This document shows positions 8,443-38,034 of a stretch of DNA of 38,034 nt, one piece after another (the stretch's first letter is position 1; each line of letters opens with the position of its first letter). Under the pieces are notes generated by a model, which saw only the letters and a program-made list of their open reading frames with translations, was not told the origin of the DNA and searched no databases. Origin of the DNA: a virus. The position numbers and the translations under genes were made by a program. Location: positions 1 to 38,034 of the IMG/VR virus record IMGVR_UViG_3300030101_004730. The stretch is one strand, 5' to 3'.

Positions 8443-8472
8443 ATAAAAAAAGCCCCAAAATTTGAGGCTTTT
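8443..8472 (-). terminator. Rho-independent terminator
   Basis: Minus strand: AAAAGCCTC pairs with GGGGCTTTT (9 bp, one G-U) around a 7-nt loop and is followed by a T run. It lies just after the stop of the gene at 8490-8789 and closes the transcript from the promoter at 9036-9067. Confidence 0.85.
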
Positions 8473-8489: not shown

Positions 8490-8789
8490 CTATTGCTTCA
8501 TACAATAAATTGCATCTTCATGAGCACCCCTTATGGCTTCTGCAAAGTTTTTGCCGTACGAACCCCACATAACACCATTTGTATAAAATGCTACAACTTC
8601 ACGCGGTGCATCTTCATAGCCTTTTGCAAGGTATAATATTACCCTATCATTAAAATGTAATGTAACTTTGTAAAATTTTGTAAAACCGTCTAATTCTTTA
8701 TTTTCAATTTGTATTTCTTTTCTATCAATTGACTTTACAATACAATTTGCCATTAGATTTGTATCTGAATATGAGATTGTTTTTTTCAT
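8490..8789 (-). CDS. Small protein of unknown function
   Basis: A 99-residue protein with alternating beta-like segments (FTKFYKVTLHFNDRVILYLA) and an aromatic C-terminal part (VMWGSYGKNFAEAIRGAHE). I do not recognise it. It starts right after a copy of the start-associated leader, and that leader's TAA is the stop codon of the preceding gene. Second gene of a two-gene operon ended by the terminator at 8443-8472. Confidence 0.7.
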   Translation of the reverse strand: MKKTISYSDTNLMANCIVKSIDRKEIQIENKELDGFTKFYKVTLHFNDRVILYLAKGYEDAPREVVAFYTNGVMWGSYGKNFAEAIRGAHEDAIYCMKQ

Positions 8790-8810
8790 GATTTGTTGTT
8801 TTAAGTTGTT
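8790..8810 (-). promoter_or_regulatory. Start-associated leader without its own promoter
   Basis: Minus strand AACAACTTAAAACAACAAATC directly precedes the ATG at 8789. It matches the leader before nine other early genes. Its TAA (8801-8803) doubles as the stop codon of the upstream gene, so that gene's last codons (Leu-Thr-Thr) are encoded by leader sequence. Confidence 0.6.
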
Positions 8811-8986
8811 AATATTTTTTCTATCTTTTTTTTAATAGTAGAAAACGTTTTTGATGTGTGTATAATAGAGCCGTTCAACTCTAAACCAAATTTTTGCAAC
8901 CTATTTGAATATGATACAATTAATTCATTTTCACTGTCAGAATCGGTTAATTCAATAATTTTACCATTCAATAATTGTTCTTTCAT
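8801..8986 (-). CDS. Small protein of unknown function
   Basis: A 61-residue protein, acidic in the first half (ELTDSDSENELIVSYS) and Lys-rich at the end. No recognised family. It is first gene after the promoter at 9036-9067, preceded by the start-associated leader, and its stop codon lies inside the leader of the next gene. Confidence 0.65.
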   Translation of the reverse strand: MKEQLLNGKIIELTDSDSENELIVSYSNRLQKFGLELNGSIIHTSKTFSTIKKKIEKILTT

Positions 8987-9067
8987 GATTTGTTGTTTTA
9001 AGTTGTTTAAAATTATTTCGTTGTTGTTGATAAATCAAATATCGAACCTTTAAACCATATTTCCAAA
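8987..9067 (-). promoter_or_regulatory. Early promoter P1 with leader
   Basis: Minus strand: TTTG (9067-9064), 20-bp spacer, GATATTTG (9043-9036, one mismatch from TAnnTTTG). Downstream come ATCAACAACAACGAAATAAT and then the start-associated leader ending at ATG 8986. The block upstream of -33 (ACTCAAATTTTTGGAAATA) matches the other four promoters. It drives the two small genes down to 8490. The remaining gap 9068-9260 holds only AT-rich DNA, the terminator at 9173-9203 and a small hairpin. Confidence 0.75.
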
Positions 9068-9172
9068 AATTTGAGTATAATAATTCAATCTTTTTTTATA
9101 ATTATTTCATAACTGCTTGATAATCAATAAAACTTTTTTTAACCTTTTTTTGAAAATTCATAAAAACCCACC

Positions 9173-9203
9173 AAAAAAGGCCACCAGCTTTCACCGATGG
9201 CCT
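9173..9203 (-). terminator. Rho-independent terminator of the replication operon
   Basis: Minus strand: AGGCCATC pairs with GGTGGCCT (8 bp, one G-U) around a 10-nt loop, followed by TTTTTT. It lies just past the 45-residue gene at 9261-9398. A second small hairpin (AGTCT/AGACT with an A-rich loop) is at 9213-9230. Confidence 0.85.
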
Positions 9204-9260
9204 AACACATATAAGTCTAAAAAAAAGACTAGCGGATATTCCCTTTAACCGCTCCCATGC

Positions 9261-9398
9261 TTACTTTTTTGATTCCCAGAATGCGGCACAGATGGCCACC
9301 GCTTGTTTGAGGTTCTTAGCTGTACCCTTTTTGATAACTGCTGGAATGCATCTGGCTATAAATTTAACCTTTGTTTCTTGTTTCTTTGGTGCTGGCAT
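9261..9398 (-). CDS. Very small basic protein (45 aa)
   Basis: ATG 9398 to TAA 9261-9263. The protein begins MPAPKKQETKVKFIARC and ends AVAICAAFWESKK. The pairing of an N-terminal IARC-like stretch with a C-terminal AVAICxxxWE resembles short helical motifs found in several phage structural proteins, but this is weak evidence. It overlaps the 56-residue gene by 35 bp in a different frame and is the last gene before a strong terminator. Confidence 0.55.
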   Translation of the reverse strand: MPAPKKQETKVKFIARCIPAVIKKGTAKNLKQAVAICAAFWESKK

Positions 9399-9958: not shown

Positions 9959-10309
9959 TTAAAAGGGCAATTCATCATTAAAAGCGTTCGCTTCTGGGTT
10001 TTGTACGGCGGTATCGGGCATCGGTATGTATTCAATGTTTTGAAGCACCTCAATACGCCAGCCGTTCAAACCTACAAAATATTTATCTTGCCATTGGCGG
10101 CCTCTTACATTAAAATGCACTTTTACTGTTTGCCCCTCTTTCTTATCATCAAGTAAGCTGATTTGATTCTGGGTAAAATCAATTTTTACAGTCTGGGGGT
10201 ACCTATCATCTGTTGAAATAATCAGTTCCCTTTTTGTGAATGTTTCAGATACTTTAACAGCATCAAAAATTTTAATAATTTTTCCCTCAATTGCTAATTC
10301 GTTGTTCAT
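9959..10309 (-). CDS. SSB-like OB-fold protein (DUF3127 type)
   Basis: A 116-residue protein. The first 85 residues are beta-rich with a DUF3127-like pattern (ELAIEGKIIKIFD, then TKRELIISTDDRYPQTVKID). The C-terminus is a flexible acidic tail ending NDELPF, very like the SSB tip that recruits partner proteins. It probably coats single-stranded DNA during phage replication. It lies between the probable initiator partner and the nuclease. Confidence 0.75.
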   Translation of the reverse strand: MNNELAIEGKIIKIFDAVKVSETFTKRELIISTDDRYPQTVKIDFTQNQISLLDDKKEGQTVKVHFNVRGRQWQDKYFVGLNGWRIEVLQNIEYIPMPDTAVQNPEANAFNDELPF

Positions 10310-10328
10310 AATGTTACCTATTTAATTG

Positions 10329-11099
10329 TTATTTAATAATTGATTTTAGTATTAATAATTTTGAATAATTAGTTATACATTTTGTTTCATAATCATTGTG
10401 CTTTTCACCCCCAGAAATGGCCCTTAGTATGGCTCTTAAGTTTTGTTTCTTGTTCTTGTTTATGCTGTCGCTGTGTAAACTGGTCTTGATTTCTTTTGTT
10501 GTCAATTCTTTTGCTTCAAACCAGATTTGATTTTTTTCTTTTACATCAAACACAATATGGCCCGTATTTATCAATATTTTAGCCCAATAAGCGTTTATAT
10601 TTTCTTTTTGGGGTATTTCCCCATGATTCAAAAATAAAGCCCTTAAATAATTGAATTTTGAAACAATGTCTTTTTGTGTCTTTTCGTTTAGGCTTTTTTC
10701 AAGCTGTTTTTCTTGTTCTTTGATTTCTTGTTCAATTAGCTTGCCTTGCTTGATTATTACTTTGTTTCTTAGCTGGGTAAAAGCTTTTAATATTTTACCT
10801 AGAATTGTTACTGTAAATTTACCAAAGTATGTTTCAAGGTTCACCCCCTCAAACTTACCAGCAGCAGCCAGATTAAAAGCCAATTCTAGTTCATTGATTG
10901 ATAGATGCGGGTACATATCACAAATAAAATTTGTACACGTTCTAAGGCTGGCTAAGTCTGTTTGATTTGGTGGGTTTTTGTAATTAGCCCCAGTATAAGA
11001 ATTTGCCAAAAAAAGAATTGTAAAGCTAATATCATTTTTGGTTTGCCTAACCTTTGTTTCATCACCAGACCTTAACATCTGACGTATGTTGCTATTCAT
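10329..11099 (-). CDS. Probable replication protein, partner of the initiator
   Basis: I start this gene at ATG 11099, which overlaps the initiator stop by 8 bp (ATGAATAG); a longer reading to 11285 would run inside the initiator gene. The 256-residue product begins MNSNIRQMLRSGDE and has a helical core (LSINELELAFNLAAAGKFEG, then YFGKFTVTILGKILKAFTQL) and a Lys-rich coiled segment. No Walker or nuclease motif is visible. Its position right after an initiator is that of lambda P or DnaT-like helicase loaders, but that role is inference from order only. Confidence 0.65.
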   Translation of the reverse strand: MNSNIRQMLRSGDETKVRQTKNDISFTILFLANSYTGANYKNPPNQTDLASLRTCTNFICDMYPHLSINELELAFNLAAAGKFEGVNLETYFGKFTVTILGKILKAFTQLRNKVIIKQGKLIEQEIKEQEKQLEKSLNEKTQKDIVSKFNYLRALFLNHGEIPQKENINAYWAKILINTGHIVFDVKEKNQIWFEAKELTTKEIKTSLHSDSINKNKKQNLRAILRAISGGEKHNDYETKCITNYSKLLILKSIIK

Positions 11100-11940
11100 C
11101 CCAGTCAATATCAATTGTATTGTTTTGGGCTTCTGGTTCGTTGTTGTAGATAGCGTCATAATACGCTTGGTAAAATCCTTTTGTTGGCTGGTTGTTATTT
11201 TGTTCATGTTTTGATTTTTTGTTGTGATAATCTTGTACAAAGATGCCCATATATTCTGAACCCGTTGAAAATTCAATTGCACCAATTACGGTTTCAACAC
11301 CAAATTTTGTACAGTCTTTGGCAAGGGCTCTAATTTTTGTTTCAATTCCTTTGAGTGTTTTGTATGGTTTCTTACAGTCTTTCCGCATCTGGGCAAACTC
11401 TAAAAAGGTATTTTTTAATATAGCATTTTTTTCAAAAACTGGGGGCCATGTGATGTCATTAAAATCTAAACCTTTTTTTCTTTTTGGCGCAACTTTTTCT
11501 TTTTTTGGTTTGGGGGTTTTTAATGAATCTTGATGTTTAACTGTTGGCTCTGGTTCAATTTCTTTTTTAATACTTTTTTCTTTATATGTTAATAATGTAT
11601 TATTAATATCTGTATTATTATCTTTAGCATTTTCTAAATACCCCCCTTTAGAAAAATAAACACCCCCCTTTAGAATATTTAATACCCGTTTAACAATTTG
11701 TTTACCCTCATAATGGTACTTTACTTGTATCATTTTCTTTTCCTCTAAGCTTTTTATTATCTGGCTGCATCTACCTTTAGAGATACCAAAAAATTCAGCA
11801 AAATAACCATTTGATGCAAAGCACCCAGCCTCATTATCTAGGCTGTCAATTTCCACCAAAAAACATTTTTCAATCAATTTCAATTCTTTGTTTAACCAAA
11901 TTTCTTTTGGTATCCAGATACCTTTAAAATCTCTATTCAC
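11092..11940 (-). CDS. Replication initiator with winged helix and internal iterons
   Basis: A 282-residue protein starting with GTG at 11940 (GTGAATAG overlaps the upstream stop by 8 bp; no ATG occurs before residue 70). Residues about 22-90 form a winged helix-turn-helix (NGYFAEFFGISKGRCSQIIK, then LEEKKMIQVKYHYEGKQ). A low-complexity linker at about 90-158 is followed by a conserved-looking C-terminal domain (FNDITWPPVFEKNAILKN). This two-domain layout is like lambda O-type initiators. The linker is encoded by DNA carrying a 14-bp direct repeat and an AT-rich block, a likely origin. Neighbours (partner, SSB-like, nuclease) support a replication role. Confidence 0.75.
   Translation of the reverse strand: MNRDFKGIWIPKEIWLNKELKLIEKCFLVEIDSLDNEAGCFASNGYFAEFFGISKGRCSQIIKSLEEKKMIQVKYHYEGKQIVKRVLNILKGGVYFSKGGYLENAKDNNTDINNTLLTYKEKSIKKEIEPEPTVKHQDSLKTPKPKKEKVAPKRKKGLDFNDITWPPVFEKNAILKNTFLEFAQMRKDCKKPYKTLKGIETKIRALAKDCTKFGVETVIGAIEFSTGSEYMGIFVQDYHNKKSKHEQNNNQPTKGFYQAYYDAIYNNEPEAQNNTIDIDWDE
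11558..11675. other. Candidate replication origin (iterons plus AT-rich block)
   Basis: Two exact copies of the 14-mer TTCTAAAGGGGGGT (minus strand) lie at 11662-11675 and 11640-11653, 22 bp apart (about two helical turns). They are followed by about 80 bp of nearly pure A/T (11558-11639). Because 22 is not a multiple of three, the copies are read in different frames, so the repeat is not there for the protein. The arrangement (iterons, then AT-rich DNA, inside the initiator gene) copies lambdoid origins. Confidence 0.55.
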
Positions 11941-14116: not shown

Positions 14117-14166
14117 AAAAAAAAAAGGGGTTTTTAGTATGTCTTATATTCCACAGTAAAAACCCC
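14117..14166 (-). terminator. Rho-independent terminator before the amidase gene
   Basis: Minus strand: a perfect 10-bp stem (GGGGTTTTTA with TAAAAACCCC; plus 14127-14136 and 14157-14166) is followed by ten T. It lies 8 bp past the ArdC-like gene and 30 bp before the amidase start, so it could limit lysin expression until antitermination. Confidence 0.85.
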
Positions 14167-14527: not shown

Positions 14528-14603
14528 GATGTTTGATTTTTAATTTATTATTATTTCGTTGTTGTTAATAACAAATTTATATCAACTTTCCTTTATTTCC
14601 AAA
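14528..14603 (-). promoter_or_regulatory. Early promoter P2 with leader
   Basis: Minus strand: TTTG (14603-14600), 20-bp spacer, TAAATTTG (14579-14572), then TTATTAACAACAACGAAATA and leader ATTAAAAATCAAACATC before ATG 14527. Upstream of -33 is GTTCAAATATTTGGAAATA, shared with P3 and P5. Confidence 0.8.
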
Positions 14604-14647
14604 TATTTGAACATATATTTTTAATCTTTTTCAAACTTTTTTTCAAT

Positions 14648-14684
14648 AAAAAAGGCTAACTCATTAAAAATTAACAAGTTAGCC
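14648..14684 (-). terminator. Rho-independent terminator after the glucosaminidase gene
   Basis: Minus strand: GGCTAACT pairs perfectly with AGTTAGCC (plus 14654-14661 and 14677-14684) around an AT-rich 15-nt loop, followed by TTTTTT. It separates the glucosaminidase operon from promoter P2. Confidence 0.88.
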
Positions 14685-14708
14685 CCAAAACAATAAATTA
14701 CCATAAAA

Positions 14709-15461
14709 CTAAAATGTTTCTAATTTATAACTTTTTATGATTCTTTTCAACTTTTGGCCGTACCCAGTACCACATAAACATGATGTTGCATAAACTTTGC
14801 CGCCTTTGGCCCTCCATTTAAGGCTCTGGGCTGGGTTTGAGCCCCCGCATAAGGCGGTCAACCATTTGTCAAGTGTTGGGGTGCCAGTTATCCTTTTGCG
14901 GTACCTATTCATCAATAATTTACTATGTGAACGCAAGCTGTACCATTGGCTTTTGAACTTAGTAAATTTGTCGGTTGGGCTATCATCAGCAGCAACCAAA
15001 AACCCGTCTTTCTGGCCTCTGTATTTGTGGCCATAAAGGTTGTTGCCATCAACTGCAAGCCTAGACAAAGCAAAGTTGCTTTCAAGTATAGCTTGTGCAA
15101 TGTAAAGGGCTGGCGGTATGTCTGGATAAACTTGTGATTCTTTCACAGCCTCAGCGCCAAAAAACTTGATGAATGATTCAATATGTATTTTTTTCCAAGC
15201 CTTAAATCTTGATTTTACAATATGATTTTTGATGTGTTTACCCCTCCATTCTTTGGAGGTCAACCATAGACGGTTTGTAGGTAGGCCCATTGTGTTGTAT
15301 GTTGTATGCTCTGGGGTTTTGTCTTTGGTGCCAGCCCAGATGCTTTTAAATTCTTGTTTTTCGGCTTTATTTGATGCGCTTGATAAGAATATAAGGATTA
15401 ATACTAAAGTGCTAAATTTGTTTAATTTTTGGGCCAATTTTGCCCCGCTAATATGTACCAT
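14709..15461 (-). CDS. Glucosaminidase (peptidoglycan hydrolase) with N-terminal membrane segment
   Basis: A 250-residue protein. Residues about 17-29 (STLVLILIFLSSA) form a signal peptide or membrane anchor. Residues 90-250 are a GH73-type glucosaminidase domain: YIAQAILESNFALS with catalytic E127, then DGNNLYGHKY (138-147), and a typical aromatic YSLRSHSKLL stretch. It would cut the GlcNAc-MurNAc backbone outside the membrane. Together with the amidase 600 bp away this gives two wall hydrolases in the early block; it might serve lysis or DNA entry. Start ATG 15461 after hairpin module R4. Confidence 0.85.
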   Translation of the reverse strand: MVHISGAKLAQKLNKFSTLVLILIFLSSASNKAEKQEFKSIWAGTKDKTPEHTTYNTMGLPTNRLWLTSKEWRGKHIKNHIVKSRFKAWKKIHIESFIKFFGAEAVKESQVYPDIPPALYIAQAILESNFALSRLAVDGNNLYGHKYRGQKDGFLVAADDSPTDKFTKFKSQWYSLRSHSKLLMNRYRKRITGTPTLDKWLTALCGGSNPAQSLKWRAKGGKVYATSCLCGTGYGQKLKRIIKSYKLETF

Positions 15462-15515
15462 AATTTATATTTTTTAAGTGTTGAATAGTGCGAGGGTTTG
15501 AGCCCCCGCTGTTTA
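15462..15515 (-). repeat. Intergenic hairpin-leader module R4 (degenerate copy)
   Basis: Minus strand: TAAACAGCGGGGGCTC... opens the module, with an imperfect 7-bp stem (plus 15490-15496 and 15503-15509), then TTCAACACTTAAAAAATA before ATG 15461. The TAA at 15513-15515 is in frame with the upstream gene, six codons past its actual stop. Confidence 0.6.
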
Positions 15516-15530
15516 CAAAATTTGAGATAA

Positions 15531-15755
15531 TTACAAAAGTCCATAATACTTATGTTCTGGGCTGATTCTTGAACGGTTTATGCGGTCTTTCATCTCCCAT
15601 GTTTTCCAGTCTTTGTAATTGTCAAGTTCCCATTCTTCTTCTGAATTGAAGCCCTCTAAAACCCACGCTGGCGGGCATTCATTTTCTTGCTGTTGGTGGT
15701 GTTCAAATCTTTCTTGCTGTTCGTTGTTCATCTGTTCAAAAAATTTACTTTTCAT
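15531..15755 (-). CDS. Small acidic protein of unknown function
   Basis: A 74-residue protein, Glu/Gln-rich at the start (EQMNNEQQERFEHHQQQE) and Trp-rich in the middle (EEEWELDNYKDWKTWEMKD). No recognised domain. Its ATG lies inside the 3' end of the upstream gene (11-bp overlap), whose last codons are formed by the start-associated leader. Confidence 0.65.
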   Translation of the reverse strand: MKSKFFEQMNNEQQERFEHHQQQENECPPAWVLEGFNSEEEWELDNYKDWKTWEMKDRINRSRISPEHKYYGLL

Positions 15756-16065
15756 TTTGTTTGATTTTAAGTTTAAAATATTGGCTGCTTATCGCCTTAT
15801 AAATAGCACTAAATTCGTTGTGCGCTTCTGGGCTCAAAGTTTCTTTTATCACTTTATAATTACGTACAAAAGCAAAGTAAATTATTTCTAAATCATCAAC
15901 ATCAAAAATTTCAATGTGGCGATATGTTGAAACAATATCATCTAATACTTGTACATGGTGTCTTTCGCCACCTTCAGCAGTTATCACCCCAGCGAGCATA
16001 TAAAATGTAAATGTAAGGGGCTCACGGGGCCAGTTATCTGCTGGCATTCTGTTTTCTTTGTTCAT
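15745..16065 (-). CDS. Small protein of unknown function
   Basis: A 106-residue protein, helical, acidic centre (IFDVDDLEIIYFAFV), no recognised family. It follows hairpin module R3. Its C-terminal residues KLKIKQNEK are encoded by the leader (AAACTTAAAATCAAACAAAA) of the next gene, so the leader has been overprinted as coding sequence. Confidence 0.68.
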   Translation of the reverse strand: MNKENRMPADNWPREPLTFTFYMLAGVITAEGGERHHVQVLDDIVSTYRHIEIFDVDDLEIIYFAFVRNYKVIKETLSPEAHNEFSAIYKAISSQYFKLKIKQNEK

Positions 16066-16118
16066 AATGTTTGATTTTAAGTTGTGAAAAATGGGGGTTG
16101 CCCCCCGTAGGTGGTTTA
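16066..16118 (-). repeat. Intergenic hairpin-leader module R3
   Basis: Minus strand: TAAACCACCTACGGGGGGCA, a GGGGG-GCAA-CCCCC hairpin with a GNRA tetraloop (plus 16093-16106), ATTTTT, then CACAACTTAAAATCAAACAT before ATG 16065. The first TAA (16116-16118) is in frame with the upstream gene, 21 codons after its TAG stop. Confidence 0.75.
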
Positions 16119-16178
16119 TGCCAAATGTTTTTCAAATTCAAAAGCAGAATTTTTACCCAACAATAAAGAATTATCGAA

Positions 16179-16673
16179 CTATAAATTTTTAATATTAAAA
16201 AATGCTTTTATGTCAGTTGGTTTGTATTCGCCGATATGGACATACAGCTTTTTTCGTGGGTAAATTGTGTCATTACTTGCAATGTAAAAATATTTATCCA
16301 AACCGACCAACCAAGAAGCATCACGACTAGAATATTTGAGGCCGCCTTGTCTCCAACCTTTATATTTTCTGGGGTTAATTTTTCTATCTAAATTTACCAT
16401 TTGCCATATATAATTTTGCTTTGGGTTTCGCTCAAACGATGATAAAATTGTACGTAAAAAAGGCATAACATTTTGTTCTTTTGCATTTTTCAAAAAAGAC
16501 TTTCTGTATTTACCTTTTTGGGTATATACTTTTACCCCATTTTCTTGTTCAGATTTTATATAAAGCATCATTGCCCATTCAAGAAATATTGGGCTCGTGA
16601 GTCTGCGATATAATTTATTGTCTTTTTTTACTAATCCGTAAGCATTAACAGTTTTATAATTGATAGTAAGCAT
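16179..16673 (-). CDS. Protein of unknown function, with in-frame open extension after its TAG stop
   Basis: A 164-residue basic, Tyr-rich protein (RKYKGWRQGGLKYSSRDASW, LYVHIGEYKP); no recognised domain. It is the first gene after promoter P3 but lacks the usual start-associated leader. After TAG (16179-16181) the same frame stays open for 20 sense codons ending at TAA 16116-16118, where repeat module R3 begins; that segment reads FDNSLLLGKNSAFEFEKHLA and looks coding. TAG could be a recent nonsense change or a readthrough site. Confidence 0.7.
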   Translation of the reverse strand: MLTINYKTVNAYGLVKKDNKLYRRLTSPIFLEWAMMLYIKSEQENGVKVYTQKGKYRKSFLKNAKEQNVMPFLRTILSSFERNPKQNYIWQMVNLDRKINPRKYKGWRQGGLKYSSRDASWLVGLDKYFYIASNDTIYPRKKLYVHIGEYKPTDIKAFFNIKNL

Positions 16674-16725
16674 AATACCCAGATTTAAAGAATGAAAAAA
16701 AAATAATTCGTTGTTGTTGTTAAAT

Positions 16726-16757
16726 CAAATATAGGGCAACTTTTCCATATTTCCAAA
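16726..16757 (-). promoter_or_regulatory. Early promoter P3
   Basis: Minus strand: TTTG (16757-16754), exact 20-bp spacer, TATATTTG (16733-16726). Flanks match the other promoters: GTTCAAATATTTGGAAATA upstream, ATTTAACAACAACAACGAAT downstream. The leader to ATG 16673 is different from the other promoter leaders. Confidence 0.82.
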
Positions 16758-16836
16758 TATTTGAACATAAAAAGATAAAAAAAATACAACTTTTTTTGCT
16801 GCACAATCATAACTAATTGAAAATCAATAGCACCAA

Positions 16837-17274
16837 TTATAAAAATTTTTTTAAGGTTTCCAGTTCTTTTTCAATTTCTTGCAAATATACAAGTTCATTT
16901 GGCTGGGGTAAGTACAGCCCATTATCAGCTGAATAATTACGAAACCTATCAATTGCGGTGGTCATTTCGGCTGTGCTCAAATCGGCTGAACTCCTTATAT
17001 CTGTATAGCTGGTGCCATCTTTGGGGTTGGTGCGCTCCACAAAAAATAAATCTTTGTTACATACCTTTTTAAAGAACCTTAGCTTTACATATGCCAGCGA
17101 ATACCCAAAGGATGCACCAAACCAGCCCAGCAACAAATGTAAATAGTTATTCTGGCTCAAACTCCTTTTTGTTATGTTTCTAAGTTCAACAAACTTAGCA
17201 GATTTTATAAGGCTTTCAGAATACCTTTTAAACTTGTCAACATCAAGGGGGCTGGATAGGTTATATTTTGCCAT
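16837..17274 (-). CDS. NinB-like recombination protein
   Basis: A 145-residue protein. RSLSQNNYLHLLLGWFG (about 38-54) and RSSADLSTAEMTTAIDRF with YSADNGLYLPQPNE (about 92-127) follow the layout of NinB/Orf-type proteins: R-(S/T)LxQN near the start and a Ser-rich strand before a final helix and Pro-rich end. NinB proteins assist recombination on single-stranded DNA, which fits its neighbours (Gp157-like, ERF, RuvC-like). The C-terminus is a short Glu/Lys helix. Assignment rests on motif reading. Confidence 0.55.
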   Translation of the reverse strand: MAKYNLSSPLDVDKFKRYSESLIKSAKFVELRNITKRSLSQNNYLHLLLGWFGASFGYSLAYVKLRFFKKVCNKDLFFVERTNPKDGTSYTDIRSSADLSTAEMTTAIDRFRNYSADNGLYLPQPNELVYLQEIEKELETLKKFL

Positions 17275-17389
17275 TTCTGCGGTCTATTTCTTTTTGTATA
17301 GCAAATAATACAGCCCCAACAATTAAAGCCAAATAAAACAGAATTACGGGGGCCAAAAAGATTATTAATAAAAATATTATAGTATTCAT
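17261..17389 (-). CDS. Small hydrophobic membrane protein (42 aa)
   Basis: ATG 17389 to TAA 17261-17263. Residues 2-31 are almost entirely hydrophobic (IIFLLIIFLAPVILFYLALI) and end in a charged tail (QKEIDRRNGKI). It overlaps the start of the NinB-like gene by 14 bp. A hairpin stands 5-34 bases upstream of its ATG. It could be a small holin-like or membrane-modulating protein; no specific family recognised. Confidence 0.55.
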   Translation of the reverse strand: MNTIIFLLIIFLAPVILFYLALIVGAVLFAIQKEIDRRNGKI

Positions 17390-17393
17390 AATT

Positions 17394-17423
17394 AAAAGGG
17401 GGCACCCTTGTACAGAATGCCCC
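17394..17423 (-). terminator. Hairpin between Gp157-like and membrane-protein genes
   Basis: Minus strand: GGGGCATTC pairs with GGGTGCCCC (9 bp, two G-U) around a 7-nt loop, followed by CTTTT and, 5 bp on, the next ATG. The T run is short, so it may be a weak terminator or attenuate expression of the membrane protein. Confidence 0.55.
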
Positions 17424-17432
17424 AGAATTTAT

Positions 17433-17960
17433 TTATCTAAAGTTTACAGATATATTGCTTTCATCAATTATGGCACCCTCAATTTCGGCACCGTTTTGAA
17501 TGTCTTTTTTTAGCTGGGTATTATCAATTTTGATGCTGTAAACCTCACGTTTGTATGCTTCTGGGATTTTGGTTTCATCAACTATTTTGAGCCGCTTTGT
17601 GTTGCTGGCTGTTACTTTAAACAAATCAGTTTTATAAGTATGATTGCCGCTTTTGTTGGTATCGCCGTACAAACTCAATCCAGCATGAACATAAGATTTC
17701 AAGCGGTCAATCTGTTTTTCAATGTTCTTTTTTTTCTGTTGCATCTGGTTAACATGGTCTTTTATGGTTTGAACTTTACCTTGCAAATCTTTGATGTAAA
17801 AATAGTAATTAGTTAGCTTGGTTTCTAACTGGTCACGGTTGATGGCTAAAGCATCATCCAAATGCTGGGGCACCTCGTCTGTATCATTTTCAATCATCCA
17901 ATTTTCAAGTTCTTGGATAGTTTGCAAATAGTGTTCTGAAATTTCAAAAATAGTTTTCAT
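17433..17960 (-). CDS. Siphovirus Gp157-like protein
   Basis: A 175-residue protein with the Gp157 plan: helical N-terminal half with a long coiled coil (VQTIKDHVNQMQQKKKNIEK) leading to IDRLKSYVHAGL, then a beta-rich C-terminal part with TDLFKVTASNTKRLKIVD, IPEAYKR and a final EGAIIDES segment. In streptococcal phages Gp157 is linked to phage resistance or recombination; in many genomes it sits next to the annealing protein, as here (ERF directly upstream). Confidence 0.75.
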   Translation of the reverse strand: MKTIFEISEHYLQTIQELENWMIENDTDEVPQHLDDALAINRDQLETKLTNYYFYIKDLQGKVQTIKDHVNQMQQKKKNIEKQIDRLKSYVHAGLSLYGDTNKSGNHTYKTDLFKVTASNTKRLKIVDETKIPEAYKREVYSIKIDNTQLKKDIQNGAEIEGAIIDESNISVNFR

Positions 17961-17980
17961 GATTATAATTTAAAGTTGTA
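17961..17980 (-). promoter_or_regulatory. Start-associated leader before the Gp157-like gene
   Basis: Minus strand ACAACTTTAAATTATAATC precedes ATG 17960. It is a looser match to the common leader CAACTTAAAATCAAACATC, with the same spacing to the start codon. Confidence 0.5.
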
Positions 17981-18071
17981 AAAAAATAAGGGGGCTCTTA
18001 TCATTAGCGTTTTCAAAGAATCACTTTTTTTGTATCGGTAATTTACCAAGATTTATAAAAGTTACCCCCTT
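17981..18071 (-). terminator. Large-loop hairpin with T run after the ERF gene
   Basis: Minus strand: AAGGGGG (18071-18065) and CCCCCTT (17994-17988) can pair across about 70 nt and are followed by ATTTTTTT. The loop contains an 11-bp palindrome GGTAAATTACC (18037-18047). Either a leaky terminator or a structured RNA between two recombination genes. Confidence 0.45.
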
Positions 18072-18078
18072 TAAATAT

Positions 18079-18729
18079 TTATTTTATTGCTTGTAAAATT
18101 GTTGCTTTCTGGGCTGGTGTCAGCTTGTATGCACTTTCAACATTTTTAATGCTGTACCCCTTATCATTTGCCCATTTAATAATTTGTTCAACTTGGTCAT
18201 CTTGTACAGCTTTTTTTGCTGGTGACTTTTTAGCTGGGGCTTTTTTGGGCTTTGGCTGGGTCTTTGGTTGGGGTACTGGTATACTGTCGCTGTGTGTTGT
18301 ATCAGTATCATCAATAGTACCAACTGGAGTCATAAAGGTATAAAGTAAAGCGTTTTTTAGGGCATAAGTTTGAGCCTTGCCAGCCGCCTTGTCTTGTGGG
18401 TCAATGCCATGACCGTACCCACAAATTTCTATTGATTCGCCAGATTCATGCATCAACAAATATTTTGTTGATACAGCACAAAAAACTGATTGCTTTTGTT
18501 TGGGGCCCCATTGGGTTTCCTCAACCCAGCGTTCAACCTTTGTATCGGGTTCAATGCTGATTGGTAAGATGCACAAGCCGTTCTTTGTCATGGCCTCATT
18601 AAAAGCCAATTTAACGTCTTTGTCTTTTACACCATTATAAGCATTTTTGCCGCTGCCAATGGTCATATTTTTTTCAATGCCTTTCACGGCTGCCATCACT
18701 TTGATAATGGCTTTTGTAAGATTTTTCAT
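18079..18729 (-). CDS. ERF-family single-strand annealing protein
   Basis: A 216-residue protein. Residues 1-130 match the ERF superfamily: an N-terminal helix (LTKAIIKVMAAVKGIEK), GKNAYNGVKDKDV, then GYGHGIDPQDKAAGKAQTYA and a helix ending in LLYTF. A Pro/Lys-rich linker (PKPKKAPAKKSPAKK) joins a small helical C-terminal domain. ERF proteins anneal complementary single strands in phage recombination. Hairpin module R2 and a start-associated leader precede the ATG at 18729; a Gp157-like gene follows. Confidence 0.88.
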   Translation of the reverse strand: MKNLTKAIIKVMAAVKGIEKNMTIGSGKNAYNGVKDKDVKLAFNEAMTKNGLCILPISIEPDTKVERWVEETQWGPKQKQSVFCAVSTKYLLMHESGESIEICGYGHGIDPQDKAAGKAQTYALKNALLYTFMTPVGTIDDTDTTHSDSIPVPQPKTQPKPKKAPAKKSPAKKAVQDDQVEQIIKWANDKGYSIKNVESAYKLTPAQKATILQAIK

Positions 18730-18784
18730 TTGTTGTTGATTTTAAGTTGTGTAATAGGGGGCGGGCCCCCGTTGTGGTTGTTTA
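18730..18784 (-). repeat. Intergenic hairpin-leader module R2
   Basis: Minus strand: TAAACAACCACAACGGGGGC, a GGGGG/CCCCC stem (plus 18757-18770), TATTA, then CACAACTTAAAATCAACAAC before ATG 18729. Its first TAA is the stop codon of the upstream gene. Confidence 0.75.
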
Positions 18785-19009
18785 AATAGCTCCTACTGTA
18801 ATTTTTGCAGAACCTATATTGATTAACCTTAGTAATAAATCTTTTTTAATGCTAAGACAATTGTTTTTGTTAGGCTTTAAAATTTGACCTTTTTTACCAC
18901 ATTTTACAAAGTGCATCACTGACGTTACATTGTAACAAAAATATAACACGTTGTTAATTTCTACTTGACAAGACTTATTTAAAATTTCGTTGTTGTTGTA
19001 AGTTCTCAT
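18782..19009 (-). CDS. Small protein of unknown function
   Basis: A 75-residue Asn/Lys/Cys-rich protein with no recognised family. It follows promoter P4 and a start-associated leader. Its first codons (MRTYNNNEIL) contain ACAACAACAACGAAAT, the same motif that lies downstream of the -7 element in the five promoters, so part of the regulatory DNA seems duplicated into the coding start. Its stop codon opens module R2. Confidence 0.62.
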   Translation of the reverse strand: MRTYNNNEILNKSCQVEINNVLYFCYNVTSVMHFVKCGKKGQILKPNKNNCLSIKKDLLLRLINIGSAKITVGAI

Positions 19010-19085
19010 GATTTTGATTTTTTAAGTTGTGAATTACTGCGTTGTTGTTAATACAAATTTATACTTTCTTTTTATTATTTCCAAA
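19010..19085 (-). promoter_or_regulatory. Early promoter P4 with leader
   Basis: Minus strand: TTTG (19085-19082), 20-bp spacer, TAAATTTG (19061-19054), then TATTAACAACAACGCAGTAA and leader CACAACTTAAAAAATCAAAA before ATG 19009. Upstream element reads ACTCAAACATTTGGAAATA. Confidence 0.8.
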
Positions 19086-19128
19086 TGTTTGAGTATAATA
19101 ATTAAAAAAACATCAAAAAAAGTTGAAT

Positions 19129-19602
19129 TTACCTTGCCAAGTACGGTTTTTTCATGGCAATAAGGGCCAATTTTGCCGCATCCCTTTTATCTTGGTTGGT
19201 TCTGGATTCGTTTTGGCTTATGCCCTCAGATTTCAACACCCTTGCAAGGCTTACGCTTGACCATTTAACACCCTTATTTTTAGGGCTCATGTCAATAACC
19301 TTGTAGCCCTTATCTTTGAGTATATCAACTACATATTGGCTGGTAGCTTGGTTCTTGCCAACATCACGACTTTTGCGAGCCACAACCAGCCTTGAACCCC
19401 GCATATCAAAAGACTTGTTTGTAAGGTTGCTATTTTCCACGCAAATAAGGCACTTTGTAGGTTCTGGGGCTGATTGTACCAGCCAACGGTAAAACTCTAT
19501 AAAACCCCCTTTAAATTGAATATAAGATATGGTTTTATCTTGTATCATAGCAAGTGCAAAACCGTTACGCCTAAATGCTGGGTCAATGCCAATGTAAATC
19601 AT
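19129..19602 (-). CDS. RuvC-like Holliday junction resolvase
   Basis: I start at ATG 19602 (ATGA overlap with the upstream gene), which places MIYIGIDPAFRRNG at the N-terminus as in RuvC-type RNase H-fold nucleases. Acidic active-site candidates are D7, E56 (CLICVENSN), and D138 with D141 (QDKRDAAKLAL), the classic D-E-D-D spacing; 157 residues is the usual RuvC length. It would resolve four-way junctions during recombination and before packaging. Promoter P4 lies just downstream of its stop. Confidence 0.82.
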   Translation of the reverse strand: MIYIGIDPAFRRNGFALAMIQDKTISYIQFKGGFIEFYRWLVQSAPEPTKCLICVENSNLTNKSFDMRGSRLVVARKSRDVGKNQATSQYVVDILKDKGYKVIDMSPKNKGVKWSSVSLARVLKSEGISQNESRTNQDKRDAAKLALIAMKKPYLAR

Positions 19603-19943
19603 TTGATAAATATTGTGCCGCAATCTTGAATATAATCAACCTTTAATGCTTTTAATAGCTTGATAAGGGCAAACCGTGACGGTTCGTAGCTGTCATCTTT
19701 TAGTATTTTATTTACTGTATTTATACCGATGCCCAGAGGCTTTTTACCATGCTTTAGCATCATTCTTATTTTGTAGGTGTTCAATTCGTTATCAGCCATA
19801 TAATTCAATATATGGTTTCTCAATTTCTGTCTTTGTGTCATCTCACATTGTTTTATAAGTTTATTAATCTGTTCAAGGCCCCGCAACTGGGCGGGGCTCA
19901 TTTCGTTTTTAATCTGGTTTCTTATATTCCTCAAATTTGACAT
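19599..19943 (-). CDS. Probable helix-turn-helix protein
   Basis: A 114-residue protein; ATG 19943 is preferred to a TTG two codons upstream. The first 35 residues form a basic helix (NLRNIRNQIKNEM). Residues about 48-105 look like a small HTH domain (LRNHILNYMADNELNTYKIR, then GINTVNKILKDDS, ALIKLLKALKV). It may be a DNA-binding regulator. It overlaps the upstream small gene by 35 bp and ends in an ATGA overlap with the RuvC-like gene. Confidence 0.6.
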   Translation of the reverse strand: MSNLRNIRNQIKNEMSPAQLRGLEQINKLIKQCEMTQRQKLRNHILNYMADNELNTYKIRMMLKHGKKPLGIGINTVNKILKDDSYEPSRFALIKLLKALKVDYIQDCGTIFIK

Positions 19944-20124
19944 TTTCAATATATTTTAATTGATTTAATAATTTTAATGATTTAAAATCTTTATCAATTT
20001 GAATCTTTTTAAAAAATTGTTTTTTCTTGTTTTTTACCTCAAAAACTGTAAAAATGTACAAAAACTTATCTTTTAAAAAAGTTCCATATTTTTTTGAGCA
20101 CAATTCTGTTCTTAGTTTTTTCAT
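19909..20124 (-). CDS. Small basic protein of unknown function
   Basis: A 71-residue Lys/Phe-rich protein. The ATG at 20124 lies one base after the stop of the helicase-methyltransferase gene, so I prefer it to a longer reading that would enter that gene. Very AT-rich like its upstream neighbour. No recognised domain; the beta/helix mix (TFLKDKFLYIFTVFEVKNK) is compatible with a small DNA- or RNA-binding protein. Confidence 0.55.
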   Translation of the reverse strand: MKKLRTELCSKKYGTFLKDKFLYIFTVFEVKNKKKQFFKKIQIDKDFKSLKLLNQLKYIENVKFEEYKKPD

Positions 20125-20125
20125 A

Positions 20126-22624
20126 TTACAATAAATCAAATAAAGTAGGTACATTAATTTTATATTCAATAGCCTTTAAATAATACAAGCCATCATCATA
20201 ATAATCTGGGTTAAGTTCAACACTTGTACAATTTCTATTCATTTCAAGTGCCTTATAAGCAGTTGAAAAAAGCCCCCCAAATGGGTCACAAATTAAGTCG
20301 CCTTTCATTGTATATCTATTTATCAACCTTTCTATAATATCCAATTGTAAAGGGCAAATGTGCTTTTGTTTTTTTCTATTTGATTGATTTGTGTTTAAAG
20401 TATTCATTCTATTTATATCTGTCCAAACTAAATCATTATTTGAATGTTGAGGCAACGTCATAAATAAACTTGACAATTTACCTTGAGCTTCCAGAATTTC
20501 ACAAACATTTAAATGCTCTTTAAAAGAATAAACCTCTTTTGTATTATGCTTTTTCCAGTAATTGCAAATTGATTTAACATCTCTTTGTTTCATTTCTTTA
20601 CTGGATAAAAATCTATTTCCATCAGACTTCCAATAAGCATGAGCATCTAACTGCCAATTTGCCCTTGTATATTCTTGTTTTGTTTTTTTGCATGGCTGGT
20701 CAGCATAAGCATTATTATTTTCAGTTGGGGCCTTTCTAAAAAGCAAAATATATTCTGGTAAACCAACACCCATTTTTGTTGCATCTTTGCATTGTTCAGA
20801 CCAGCCTAATCTGTAAGTTTGATTATTTTCTCTTACAACATCTGTTGTTACTGTAATTTTACCAATTAGATAAAAACCATGTTTTAAAAAATGCTGTACA
20901 GTTTTACCGCTGAAATCGTCAATTGTAGTAAAAGAAGTGCCGTTTTGATATGAATATCTAATCCTATCTTTTACATGAATAGCAGCTATTTTACCAGCTT
21001 TCAAACATCTTAATAAATTAGGCGTTAAATAGTCCATTTGTTTAAAGAAATTATCATTGCCATGATTGTGGCCCATGTCATTATAATTATCTGAATACTC
21101 ATAATGGTCACCAAATGGAATAGAAGTCAATATCATATCATAAATATTACTTTTTTGTTCTTGGTGAAATGTGACAGTATCTTCATTGTAAACATTTGCG
21201 CCACCTATTTTTGCACTTCTTCTATTATTAAACATTTGCCTTTTCATATCACTTCTAACTTTATCTTTATTTAAACCGTATTCTCTAACTAAATTTATCA
21301 TTTCTGTTTGTAATTCAATATGCTTTCGCCATTTCTCTTTTAATGCTTTTAAAACGTGTCTTTCGTTTTGTGTAAATATAATATGCACATTGACTTCTTT
21401 ATCTTGTTTAAATCTATAACAGCGGTGCACAGCTTGTATGAAATCATTGAATTTATAATCAATGCCAACAAATATCATATTATTGCAATTGTGCTGAAAA
21501 TTACATCCGCTGCCAGCTATCTTTGGTTTTGTTGATAGTATTTGATATTCACCACGTTTAAAGCTTATTAAAAGGCTTTCTTTTTCTGTGTTTTTTTGTG
21601 AACCAAAAACAGATTTAATACAAAATTTTTCTTTGAATGCCTTATTTATAGCTTGTCTTTCAGCTTCCAGATGATGCCACAAAATAAAATTATCATCACT
21701 TTGACAATTTACAATATCTAAAGCTTTTTTAACTCTCAAATCTATTGTACTACTTTTTTCTCTGGCTGTATCAATCAAGCTTTTTGAATTGTCTTTAAAT
21801 AGAACAATATCACCTTTTTTATTTGTTATAATTCCCTTTTCAATGTGTTGCACTTCATGTTCAATTAAGTTCAATTTAGGCAAGATATACCCATCATCAT
21901 TATAGCCTAAGTCAGATGGTTTATTTATAAATACAGCCCATGTGCTAACCCATTTCCAAAACTCCTCTTTTTTGTTTGGGTATAGGGTTAAATTACCAGC
22001 TTTTGTACTATCTCTTTGAAAAAATCTTGTAAGTGCATGGCCCCTATCAATTACACCTAAATAGTCAGCATAATTTAAAATCTCTATAAAATCATTTGGA
22101 GTTGGGGTTGCTGTTGCAACAAAACGATAATTTATATTTGAAAAATATTTTAACACAAAGTTAGTTGTTTGAGTTTTAAGATTTCTTATCATTGATGCTT
22201 CATCAAATGAAACGCCACCAAACTTATCTGGCCTCACATCACCTTTCCTTATTCTTTCATAGTTAGTGCAATATATTGTATTTGTGTATTCTGTAACTGT
22301 GTCAGAATCGGTTATATATTTGATGCTCATTTTTGAATCTAAAAATTTTAAATCATCTTTAAACTCACCAATAACGCCCAGCGGCATACAAACCAAAAAC
22401 GGTTTATTTGTTATTTCAATTATCTTTCTTGCAATTTCCAATTGCATCATTGTTTTACCAAGTCCAAAGCTGGCAAAAATAGCCCTACGGCCACCAGATA
22501 TACACCATTTTACAATATCCTTTTGATGAGGTAAAAGATTTGAATCTATATTTGACTTCAAATCATCTGTGCCATAATCTTTTGCAATTACAACTTTGCT
22601 TTCTAAAAATTTTTTGTACTCCAT
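20126..22624 (-). CDS. SNF2-type helicase fused to a beta-class amino-methyltransferase
   Basis: An 832-residue two-part enzyme. Residues 30-460 are a superfamily 2 helicase: Walker A SFGLGKTM (52-59), motif II FDEAS (140-144), motif III TATP (171-174), and motifs V/VI AGSGCNFQ (370-377) and QAVHRCYRF (397-405). Residues about 495-832 are an N4/N6 DNA methyltransferase with motif IV first (LTSIPFG, 499-505) and motif I last (LICDPFGGLFST, 777-788), i.e. beta order; VELNPDYY follows. Motif IV has SIPF where SPPY/W is usual. Such a fusion could methylate phage DNA processively as antirestriction, as proposed for P1 DarB, or act in replication. It is second gene after P5, behind hairpin module R1. 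Confidence 0.85.
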   Translation of the reverse strand: MEYKKFLESKVVIAKDYGTDDLKSNIDSNLLPHQKDIVKWCISGGRRAIFASFGLGKTMMQLEIARKIIEITNKPFLVCMPLGVIGEFKDDLKFLDSKMSIKYITDSDTVTEYTNTIYCTNYERIRKGDVRPDKFGGVSFDEASMIRNLKTQTTNFVLKYFSNINYRFVATATPTPNDFIEILNYADYLGVIDRGHALTRFFQRDSTKAGNLTLYPNKKEEFWKWVSTWAVFINKPSDLGYNDDGYILPKLNLIEHEVQHIEKGIITNKKGDIVLFKDNSKSLIDTAREKSSTIDLRVKKALDIVNCQSDDNFILWHHLEAERQAINKAFKEKFCIKSVFGSQKNTEKESLLISFKRGEYQILSTKPKIAGSGCNFQHNCNNMIFVGIDYKFNDFIQAVHRCYRFKQDKEVNVHIIFTQNERHVLKALKEKWRKHIELQTEMINLVREYGLNKDKVRSDMKRQMFNNRRSAKIGGANVYNEDTVTFHQEQKSNIYDMILTSIPFGDHYEYSDNYNDMGHNHGNDNFFKQMDYLTPNLLRCLKAGKIAAIHVKDRIRYSYQNGTSFTTIDDFSGKTVQHFLKHGFYLIGKITVTTDVVRENNQTYRLGWSEQCKDATKMGVGLPEYILLFRKAPTENNNAYADQPCKKTKQEYTRANWQLDAHAYWKSDGNRFLSSKEMKQRDVKSICNYWKKHNTKEVYSFKEHLNVCEILEAQGKLSSLFMTLPQHSNNDLVWTDINRMNTLNTNQSNRKKQKHICPLQLDIIERLINRYTMKGDLICDPFGGLFSTAYKALEMNRNCTSVELNPDYYDDGLYYLKAIEYKINVPTLFDLL

Positions 22625-22678
22625 GATTTTTTGTTTTTAAGTTGTGAAAAAGGGGCTGGGCCCCGTTTGGGTTGTTTA
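22625..22678 (-). repeat. Intergenic hairpin-leader module R1
   Basis: Minus strand: TAAACAACCCAAACGGGGCC, a GGGGC-CCA-GCCCC hairpin (plus 22652-22664), TTTTT, then CACAACTTAAAAACAAAAAA before ATG 22624. Its first TAA (22676-22678) is the stop codon of the upstream gene. Confidence 0.75.
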
Positions 22679-22885
22679 TAAATTACCTACATTATTTAAG
22701 GCTTTATTAAGTGCGGTTTCATAATTTTCATGATTTCCGCATCCTAAACCGTTTTTGGTTTCTACCATTACAAACCATTTGTTGCAAACTGATTCATCGT
22801 AAACATTATAAACTTTTTTTGTAAACAATGATTTTGATGTTTTTTGTACTATAAATTCTTTTGAGATAATTTTGTAAGATTCCAT
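22676..22885 (-). CDS. Small protein of unknown function, first early gene after P5
   Basis: A 69-residue beta-rich protein (YKIISKEFIVQKTSKSLF, KWFVMVETKNGLGCG) with no recognised family. It is the first gene after promoter P5 and after the late terminator, so it may be among the first genes expressed. Its stop opens module R1. Confidence 0.65.
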   Translation of the reverse strand: MESYKIISKEFIVQKTSKSLFTKKVYNVYDESVCNKWFVMVETKNGLGCGNHENYETALNKALNNVGNL

Positions 22886-22959
22886 GATGTTTGATTTTTA
22901 AGTATTATTTAATTGTTGTTGTTATAACAAATATAAGGGGTATTTCTGTTATTTCCAAA
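22886..22959 (-). promoter_or_regulatory. Early promoter P5 with leader
   Basis: Minus strand: TTTG (22959-22956), 20-bp spacer, TATATTTG (22935-22928), then TTATAACAACAACAATTAAA and leader ACTTAAAAATCAAACATC before ATG 22885. Upstream: GTTCAAATATTTGGAAATA. It sits about 45 bp past the late terminator. Nothing else is visible in 22960-23002. Confidence 0.82.
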
Positions 22960-23002
22960 TATTTGAACATAATAATACAAAAAAATATAAAATAAATTTC
23001 AC

Positions 23003-23040
23003 AAAAAAACGCTAAACCATTTATTTTCAATGATTTAACG
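23003..23040 (-). terminator. Rho-independent terminator of the late operon
   Basis: Minus strand: CGTTAAATCATT pairs with AATGGTTTAGCG (12 bp, two G-U) around a 7-nt loop, followed by TTTTTTT. It is the first clear terminator after the whole packaging-head-tail-fibre series. Confidence 0.88.
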
Positions 23041-23102
23041 CCAAAAATATTATCAACCTTTTTTAACTAAAGTTGTAATTTTACTATGAAAAATGCAAGT
23101 AT

Positions 23103-37345: not shown

Positions 37346-37798
37346 TTAGCAGCAATCGCCAACCATAAATTCTTCGCTCCAAAGTTCTAAACTCTGGGTG
37401 CCCGTTGCTGAATCATTAAGAATTAAATTTATCACATATCTACCCTCTGGGGCTGGTGTAATTAAGCTGCCCGCATCGCTTGTTTGATACACTAATTTTT
37501 GCACCCCATTAACTGTAACGGCCTTGCTATTTACAGAACCTATTGGAGGGCTAAAAGTACCCGTGAAAACATTGCCGCCCTTTGTTAAAAGATAATCAAA
37601 AGCAAGTACATTATCATATAAAGCGGGTACAAATATTTGAAAGGTGGGCACCTTGTTTGGAGGTACAGACCACAAGCCCAAAGGAGCATTGAAACCGTTG
37701 TTGTTTTTACTGAAAATATAGTTGTTATTATCATAAAAAGGTAAGCCGCCCCCTTGATGGCTAGCTGTACATCTATTCAAAATATTAATGCTACTCAT
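37346..37798 (-). CDS. Virion-cluster protein of unknown function
   Basis: A 150-residue beta-rich protein (GSLITPAPEGRYVINLILND) with Cys residues at both ends (NRCTASHQGGG and MVGDCC). Its ATG overlaps the stop of the 589-residue protein by 8 bp (ATGAGTAG). No recognised family. Confidence 0.62.
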   Translation of the reverse strand: MSSINILNRCTASHQGGGLPFYDNNNYIFSKNNNGFNAPLGLWSVPPNKVPTFQIFVPALYDNVLAFDYLLTKGGNVFTGTFSPPIGSVNSKAVTVNGVQKLVYQTSDAGSLITPAPEGRYVINLILNDSATGTQSLELWSEEFMVGDCC

Positions 37799-38034
37799 AG
37801 TAATTTATATTTAATGTCAAAAAGCCAGTTTTTAAGTTTAGGCTGGCACTTTGTAACTGTCCATTATTAAAGTTGTTACCAATAAAGCTGCTATAAGGAT
37901 TGAATAAGAAAAAACAGCATAAAGGTATCTGTAATTGTTCCAGTTTTTTAACTGGTTTGTTCTTTGTAAAAGGGGTATCTATAAAATTCATTTCACCACT
38001 TTCAAAAGGTCTGTAATACTTCCAAAATTTATCA
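37791..38034 (-). CDS. C-terminal end of the 589-residue structural protein (partial)
   Basis: The part from 37934 down to TAG at 37791-37793 encodes the last 47 residues of the gene that starts at 1626. Bases 37935-38034 repeat the window's first 100 bases and encode the same protein region again. An apparent ATG at 37991 (MNFIDTPFTKNK) is internal to the long gene. Confidence 0.85.
   Translation of the reverse strand, partial: DKFWKYYRPFESGEMNFIDTPFTKNKPVKKLEQLQIPLCCFFLFNPYSSFIGNNFNNGQLQSASLNLKTGFLTLNINYYE
37935..38032. repeat. Terminal overlap, right copy
   Basis: Identical to 1-98; see the left copy. The single difference at 38033 (C versus T at 99) is either an assembly-end error or real variation in the population. 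Confidence 0.93.

Follow-up and report, generated by a model that had tools for sequence, protein, structure and literature searches.

The question raised by the 38,034-base virus record IMGVR_UViG_3300030101_004730 (the window, taken over its whole length; G+C 34%) is how successive genes are started and ended in a phage that carries nearly all of its genes on the minus strand. The host would be of the Flavobacterium type, judging by the promoter type and by similarity to Flavobacterium phages. Two short elements were found to recur around genes that, by their content, would be expressed early: a start leader abutting the ATG, with the consensus CAACTTAAAATCAAACATC, and a GC hairpin opened by TAAAC that precedes some of the leaders and is called a joint here. 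We give somewhat more than even credence to the account that the leader serves to initiate translation without Shine-Dalgarno pairing and that the hairpin insulates neighbouring cistrons or stabilises 3′ ends, mostly without terminating transcription but as a leaky terminator in some copies, all within exchangeable early cassettes.

The 110 bases upstream of each listed start were examined, and leaders were ranked over both strands with a 20-nt, ATG-registered, leave-one-out matrix. A sequence-only reading of the window had named ten starts with a leader; it was found at all ten, eight of them within the genome's best 12 sites (rank 4 for 8789, 8986 and 14527, 6 for 22624, 8 for 16065 and 22885, 10 for 15755 and 12 for 19009). 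The other two fitted poorly, since the leader at 18729 (CAACTTAAAATCAACAACAA-ATG) was off register by a few bases and ranked 210, and that at 17960 (ACAACTTTAAATTATAATC) was weak and without an in-register score. An eleventh, weaker copy that had not been listed was found at 15461 (ACACTTAAAAAATATAAATT-ATG, score 10.6). None of these 10-11 genes was recognised as structural. The expectation that matrix sites would be more frequent at starts than by chance was borne out: eight sites on the gene strand scored above 14, all of them at gene starts, against none on the other strand and 0.3 in shuffles, and the consensus with up to three mismatches gave 3 matches against 0.11 expected. Each upstream column was then shuffled among 50 starts in 300 rounds, a null that keeps the A-rich start bias; 14 similar start pairs were observed against a null mean of 1.3 and a maximum of 5. 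Within-genome start similarity in the phages 1/32 and FCL-2 did not exceed their own column-shuffled nulls. Because of the matrix ranks and of this excess, which is absent in 1/32 and FCL-2, the leader is a real repeated sequence beyond base composition.

The leaders were found to contain A at -3, A around -6 and a run of A from about -10 to -13, followed directly by the ATG, with no Shine-Dalgarno sequence and with most positions predicted to be unpaired. Efficient starts of Flavobacterium johnsoniae are determined by A-3, A-6, A-12/-13 and low structure, and Shine-Dalgarno pairing is not used in the phylum (PMC6847099); a passage of PMC9976891 also states the latter. Since the adenine positions and the low structure match these determinants, the leader is read as a translation start region, and it would act as a repeated initiation region suited to hosts whose starts are selected without Shine-Dalgarno pairing. 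The copy at 15755 also suggests a start-linked role, because it is present inside the coding sequence of the upstream gene, where there is neither a promoter nor a gene boundary. The leader as a mere hitch-hiker of duplicated promoters was ruled out, six of the ten leaders being found at operon-internal genes. Concerted evolution of the copies within each phage was weak and was dropped, as two copies from one phage were not clearly closer to each other than copies from different phages (90 of 2000 permutations), and for the same reason a co-evolving trans-acting factor is unsupported.

The four TAAAC modules described by the sequence-only reading were all found with the TAA in frame, as the actual stop at 22676-22678 (J22624) and 18782-18784 (J18729), and 63 nt (21 codons) past the stop at 16118 (J16065) and 18 nt (6 codons) past the stop at 15515 (J15461). 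A GC hairpin was present at each; the CGGGG/CCCC form given for its arms was too simple for J15461. The pattern GGGG-N3-9-CCCC was found at 4 places on the gene strand (0.7 on average in shuffles), and three of these are joints ending exactly 27 nt before an ATG. No promoter of the TTTG/TAnnTTTG type lies between any of the four joints and its start, the joints being internal to transcription units. The further claim that gene starts and gene ends are both standardised held for the ends at hairpin joints but not elsewhere, as the leader at 15755 lies inside a gene and that at 8789 includes the stop of the upstream gene. Copies of the joint differ in stem and loop, and their hairpin arms were misplaced by MAFFT; the covariance models of Rfam 15 gave 0 matches above gathering score in the window. 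A Shine-Dalgarno reading of the joint G-run was set aside, the run being sequestered in the stem and the phylum being without such pairing (PMC6847099 and the passage of PMC9976891).

A standard terminator score with a threshold of zero was applied to the hairpins. The window joints scored +9.6 (J22624), -23, -6.5 and -48, and the joints of the relatives L091, L348 and G001 scored -50, -49 and -73, so that six of the seven were below the threshold; the unit-end hairpins were positive in 8 of 10 cases, mostly with U6-U10 tracts. Because the joint scores are mostly negative and the unit-end scores mostly positive, most joints would not fully halt transcription, though J22624, with U5 after its stem, might partly do so. 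The main rival is that the joints are leaky terminators or attenuators, that is, weakened intrinsic terminators which leave the first gene more abundant than the downstream gene, the leader merely restarting translation. J22624 and the L096 copy (+19.5) do score as terminators, the copies of L101 contain 5-6 T in 8, the joint behind the ArdC-N-like gene of L348 stands where the window has a strong terminator and shares CTAAAAACCCC with it, and the Flavobacterium psychrophilum transcriptome is recognised to include a class of partial terminators (PMC9723704). The joints J18729, J15461, L091, L348 and G001, however, were found almost without a U-tract (-23 to -73), and the distance to the ATG keeps returning to 26-28 nt, which a terminator would not require. 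This rival is considered unlikely, and insulation or 3′-end stabilisation would be the first choice.

The reach of the module was followed in relatives. The terminase gave L089, L090 and L091 (86% identity) and L092, L095, L096, L097 and L098 (62-77%); the promoter pattern added L244, a virus whose sequence overlaps L091, and the gene at 10329 added L348. In this clade TAAAC was found to open 6 of 9 hairpin gaps against 5 of 72 other gaps (p = 1e-4), and the stop-to-start gap measured 50-52 nt in 5 of 9 hairpin gaps against 0 of 72 others (p = 5e-6), both p-values being descriptive, since some of these loci had already shown the pattern when the statistics were worked out. The hairpin usually ended 26-28 nt before the ATG. 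In L096 and L101 the hairpin gaps measured 51 and 52 nt and contained U-tracts, and L101 carries AGGCTGG-GCAA-CCAGCCT in two copies before starts. An own start leader, ACAGAC-ATG, was observed in L101, L092 and L094. A promoter with ATCAACAACGAAA was found in G001, the record of L086/L097 (terminase 68%); the gene that it leads to ends in TAAAC, and GGGG-UUCG-CCCC and the next ATG follow. Neither association was found at the loci of other phages, where TAAAC opened 3 of 66 hairpin gaps against 43 of 1292 others. One of these three belongs to the cultured Flavobacterium phage 1/32, in which a repeated promoter at 8613 is followed by a gene at 8672-9249, TAAAC, ACCCC-UUCG-GGGGT, 27 nt and an ATG at 9299.

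The stems, of 4-8 pairs, were found to stay paired despite differing sequence, being G-first in some, AGGCTGG/CCAGCCT in L101 and ACCCC/GGGGT in 1/32, and several enclose UUCG or GCAA loops. Pairing rather than sequence appears to be kept, because the arms of 1/32 are swapped relative to those of the window, and changing but paired stems with stable UUCG/GCAA loops point to a function in RNA. Such stable hairpins between cistrons, with unstructured A-rich RNA on either side, are reminiscent of intercistronic regions that undergo processing in other phages, and the stable loops would suit a host or phage nuclease that cuts at or near the hairpins, separating the two messages and stabilising them differentially; no conserved cleavage sequence was found, however, and 4-8 pairs make a short stem for RNase III, so that processing is improbable. 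Still less probable is a purely compositional likeness, in which the leaders are ordinary A-rich Bacteroidetes start context and the hairpins ordinary gene-end hairpins: F. johnsoniae normally has A-rich starts (PMC6847099), the whole genome is AT-rich and the leaders at 17960 and 18729 score badly with the in-register matrix, but the excess of similar start pairs goes beyond column-shuffled starts and is missing in FCL-2 and 1/32, and it is in this clade only that hairpin gaps go together with TAAAC and with a length of 50-52 nt.

The modules recur in relatives with different cargo. L244 and L091 were found to be colinear with the window from 11285 to 4806, and gene content in L244/L091 and in L348 differed from that of the window at three slots while the modules persisted, as had been proposed; modules also recur in further relatives and in 1/32. 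Between the gene at 10329 and the SSB gene (region 9959-11285) the window contains no gene, L244 contains a C5 methylase (Pfam DNA_methylase, 7.6e-44) with the leader TACTTAAAAACAAACATCAC-ATG and a 40-aa gene, and L348 contains a D12-class methylase (1.4e-17) without the leader. This slot, which lies between two conserved genes, was observed to be hypervariable, with no DNA methylase or one of the C5 or D12 class depending on the relative. Between the genes at 9261 and 8326 the window contains promoter, leader, a 61-aa gene, leader, a 99-aa gene and terminator, whereas L244/L091 contain promoter, leader, a 191-aa gene, TAAAC hairpin, a 63-aa gene and terminator; no relation between the two sets of genes was found by BLASTP. 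The ArdC-N-like gene is 72% identical in L348 and has kept its leader, so that the motif persists at this start, the only module-linked one for which a true relative offered an orthologue. It is followed in L348 by TAAAC-GGGGG-CTAAAAA-CCCCC, leader, a 55-aa gene, leader and a 43-aa gene, and then by a terminator and endolysin, where the window contains the terminator only. The presence/absence patterns at the three slots are those predicted by modular cargo. In 1/32 a 34% homologue of the 191-aa gene behind the L244 promoter module follows a repeated promoter peculiar to 1/32, which fits the expectation for moving cargo that takes on or encounters local modules.

Contigs reached through the helicase/methylase and ERF genes share only those genes, without the leader; they were not accepted as phage relatives, and their lack of the motif is uninformative. 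The strict promoter pattern gave no match in viral contigs; a looser one gave 113 stretches, and only L091 and L244 were real among the 80 listed. The leader pattern gave no module-like match in the records of further relatives and in three host genomes.

In the favoured account a unit would begin with an optional terminator and a promoter whose operator-like palindrome is common to the units; a leader and the first gene would follow, then the hairpin joint, a further leader with the next gene or genes, and a closing terminator. The joint hairpin, right after the stop codon, would sit where the terminating ribosome leaves and ahead of the footprint of the new initiation complex; the downstream gene would be reached by read-through, most copies being without a U-tract. 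The hairpin would mainly part the end of one frame from the next start and cap or stabilise the upstream message, with partial termination at copies that have a U-tract, and some copies could do both. Genes would be gained, lost or replaced between units, possibly by recombination at the modules, because starts and ends are standardised.

Several points weigh against this account. U-tracts are present in J22624, L096 and the L101 copies, and J22624 and L096 score as terminators, so that attenuation may be the main role there. The geometry is not obligatory, since the hairpin comes to within 12-17 nt of the ATG in L091 and in G001, and the constant spacing within the window may have arisen because one module was copied to all four places and not through selection. 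The leader is carried by only part of the early genes and the hairpin by only four. The relatives are few and mostly short contigs, and cargo exchange was seen as presence or absence and not as breakpoints within modules. A bolder version is doubtful: the joint would be an intercistronic connector of the plug-and-play kind, with distances on the scale of a ribosome (about 27 nt from the stop to the hairpin end and about 27 nt from there to the AUG), which replaces Shine-Dalgarno-based coupling in Bacteroidetes phages and insulates cistrons so that any gene could be inserted without retuning expression.

One of the two nearest likenesses is to the start-associated sequences (SAS) of cluster K mycobacteriophages, a 13-bp GGGATAGGAGCCC consensus with up to two mismatches and a Shine-Dalgarno core (PMC3203893, PMC12699233), and to the extended ones (ESAS), imperfect inverted repeats of 17 bp that vary in ways which do not bear out RNA hairpins (PMC3203893). 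As there, a short repeat lies just upstream of non-structural starts with different gene families behind it, the upstream stop sometimes falling inside the repeat, and the window leaders match in position, abutting the ATG at 10-11 genes. About half of the SAS have an additional inverted repeat upstream, as some window leaders have a joint hairpin. The leader itself, however, is unrelated to the SAS sequence and contains no Shine-Dalgarno core, and the stems of the window clade, unlike ESAS, stay paired with changing sequence, directly after the stop and opened by TAAAC. The other is to the T4-type PeSLs (promoter early stem-loops, repeated intergenic cassettes of promoter plus stem-loop; Arbiol 2010; Comeau 2014), which are linked to early-gene shuffling, as cited in PMC4503421. 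The change of gene content, seen as presence or absence, among L244/L091 and L348 is PeSL-like, and the terminator-promoter composites before the units 22885, 14527 and 8986 may be so; the joint hairpins are unlike PeSLs in being promoterless, within transcription units and coupled to a start leader, and the phage family and host differ.

T4-like phages contain very stable intercistronic UUCG hairpins that come after a stop codon and ahead of the ribosome-binding region of the following gene, before Shine-Dalgarno sites; these lack the shared leader of the present phage group. Gaps of stop, UUCG hairpin and start were also found in the unrelated contigs L278, L296 and L302. The A-rich, Kozak-like initiation regions of Bacteroidetes (Baez et al. 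2019, PMC6847099) have the same adenine positions, no structure and no Shine-Dalgarno sequence, and the window goes beyond that positional bias in repeating a specific sequence of 16-20 nt. Defined as a GC-rich hairpin with a direct U-tract, an intrinsic terminator describes most unit-end hairpins but not six of the seven joints. The sequence-only reading knew of no equivalent in Bacteroidetes phages, and a limited literature search found no paper describing one, but a deposited phage, 1/32, carries a copy, which makes the element testable in a cultured system. If true, the account extends standardised, exchangeable regulatory joints of the cluster K and T4 types to phages of Shine-Dalgarno-independent hosts. 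The joints, like plug-in connectors, are kept by related phages while the genes between them change; with such a defined element, the way in which these phages arrange messages of several genes can be put to the test, Flavobacterium genetics would gain a natural expression part, and phage gene cassettes could be found by a marker.

Table 1. Joints, leaders, promoters and terminator-like hairpins of the window
Feature	Position	Strand	Content	Remark
J22624	22625..22678	-	Stop TAAAC; GGGGC-CCA-GCCCC at 22652-22664	27 nt to helicase/methylase ATG
J18729	18730..18784	-	Stop TAAAC; GGGGG-CCCG-CCCCC at 18757-18770	27 nt to ERF-type annealing protein ATG
J16065	16066..16118	-	TAAAC in frame past stop; GGGGG-GCAA-CCCCC at 16093-16106	27 nt to ATG
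J15461	15462..15515	-	TAAAC in frame past stop; GCGGGGG-CTCAAA-CCCTCGC at 15490-15509	28 nt to glucosaminidase ATG
Leader, ATG 22885	22886..22905	-	ATACTTAAAAATCAAACATC	Matrix
Leader, ATG 22624	22625..22644	-	CAACTTAAAAACAAAAAATC	Matrix
Leader, ATG 19009	19010..19029	-	CAACTTAAAAAATCAAAATC	Matrix
Leader, ATG 18729	18730..18749	-	CAACTTAAAATCAACAACAA	Matrix; shifted register
Leader, ATG 17960	17961..17980	-	TACAACTTTAAATTATAATC	Matrix; weak
Leader, ATG 16065	16066..16085	-	ACAACTTAAAATCAAACATT	Consensus scan and matrix
Leader, ATG 15755	15756..15775	-	TAAACTTAAAATCAAACAAA	Matrix; within upstream coding sequence
Leader, ATG 14527 (ArdC-N-like gene)	14528..14547	-	TAAATTAAAAATCAAACATC	Matrix; counterpart kept at L348 orthologue
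Leader, ATG 8986	8987..9006	-	ACAACTTAAAACAACAAATC	Matrix
Leader, ATG 8789	8790..8809	-	ACAACTTAAAACAACAAATC	Matrix; holds upstream gene's stop
P22885	22928..22967	-	Palindrome TTCAAATATTTGGAAATA over -33 TTTG, N20, -7 TATATTTG; then 5′ untranslated region AACAACAACAA	
P19009	19054..19093	-	CTCAAACATTTGGAAATA ... TAAATTTG, then AACAACAACG	
P16673	16726..16765	-	TTCAAATATTTGGAAATA ... TATATTTG, then AACAACAACAACG	Gene without leader
P14527	14572..14611	-	TTCAAATATTTGGAAATA ... TAAATTTG, then AACAACAACG	
P8986	9036..9075	-	CTCAAATTTTTGGAAATA ... GATATTTG, then CAACAACAACG	
Intrinsic-terminator-like hairpin	23008..23042	-		Directly upstream of P22885
Intrinsic-terminator-like hairpin	14652..14686	-		Between gene 14709 and P14527
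Terminator	14127..14166	-	T10 tail	After ArdC gene; in L348, joint hairpin and two-gene cassette here
Intrinsic-terminator-like hairpin	9178..9203	-		Upstream of P8986
Intrinsic-terminator-like hairpin	8448..8472	-		Closes 8986-8490 unit

Five units, whose promoters the sequence-only reading had overlooked, were found to open with a strong Bacteroidetes-type promoter of TTTG, 20 bases and TAnnTTTG (GATATTTG at P8986), followed by a 5′ leader beginning with (T)AACAACAACG. The consensus TTTG/TAnnTTTG is established for Bacteroidetes. Its primary form, TTTG-N~19-20-TAnnTTTG, was present in the five window copies with a spacer of 20 and in L091 with a spacer of 19. The palindrome TTCAAATATTTGGAAATA, with small changes, covers the -33 box of all five (22950-22967, 19076-19093, 16748-16765, 14594-14611 and 9058-9075), a perfect palindrome TTTCAAAATGTTTTGAAA occupies the equivalent promoter position in L091, and the palindrome is likely an operator for one regulator. 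A 116-aa protein at 19599-19949 (-) has a weak match to the Cro/CI-type helix-turn-helix (HTH_3 0.0034, below cut-off) and is a candidate for that regulator. Terminator-like hairpins lie upstream of three promoters (P22885, P14527 and P8986), and the others close units.

The record probably represents a near-complete genome that is circularly permuted and interrupted within a gene of the L089 type, because the last 64 residues of a single 592-aa gene of L089 match the open reading frame at the right end of the window (37791-38034) and the gene before it matches the open reading frame next to the left end (1-1626). The coding start of gene 19009 (MRTYNNNEIL; 18970-19009, -) was found to contain ACAACAACAACGAAATTTTAAA, nearly the 5′ leader of the promoter module. 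An own repeated promoter was found before several small genes in phage 1/32 (L349; 5853, 8613, 33930 and 41630) and in FCL-2 (L088; 3424, 28817 and 42600), and repeated early promoters seem general in flavobacterial phages. Another phage contig, L084, was found to contain a repeated promoter-plus-leader unit at 937 and 2548, ending in CACTAAAAACTACCACG-ATG.

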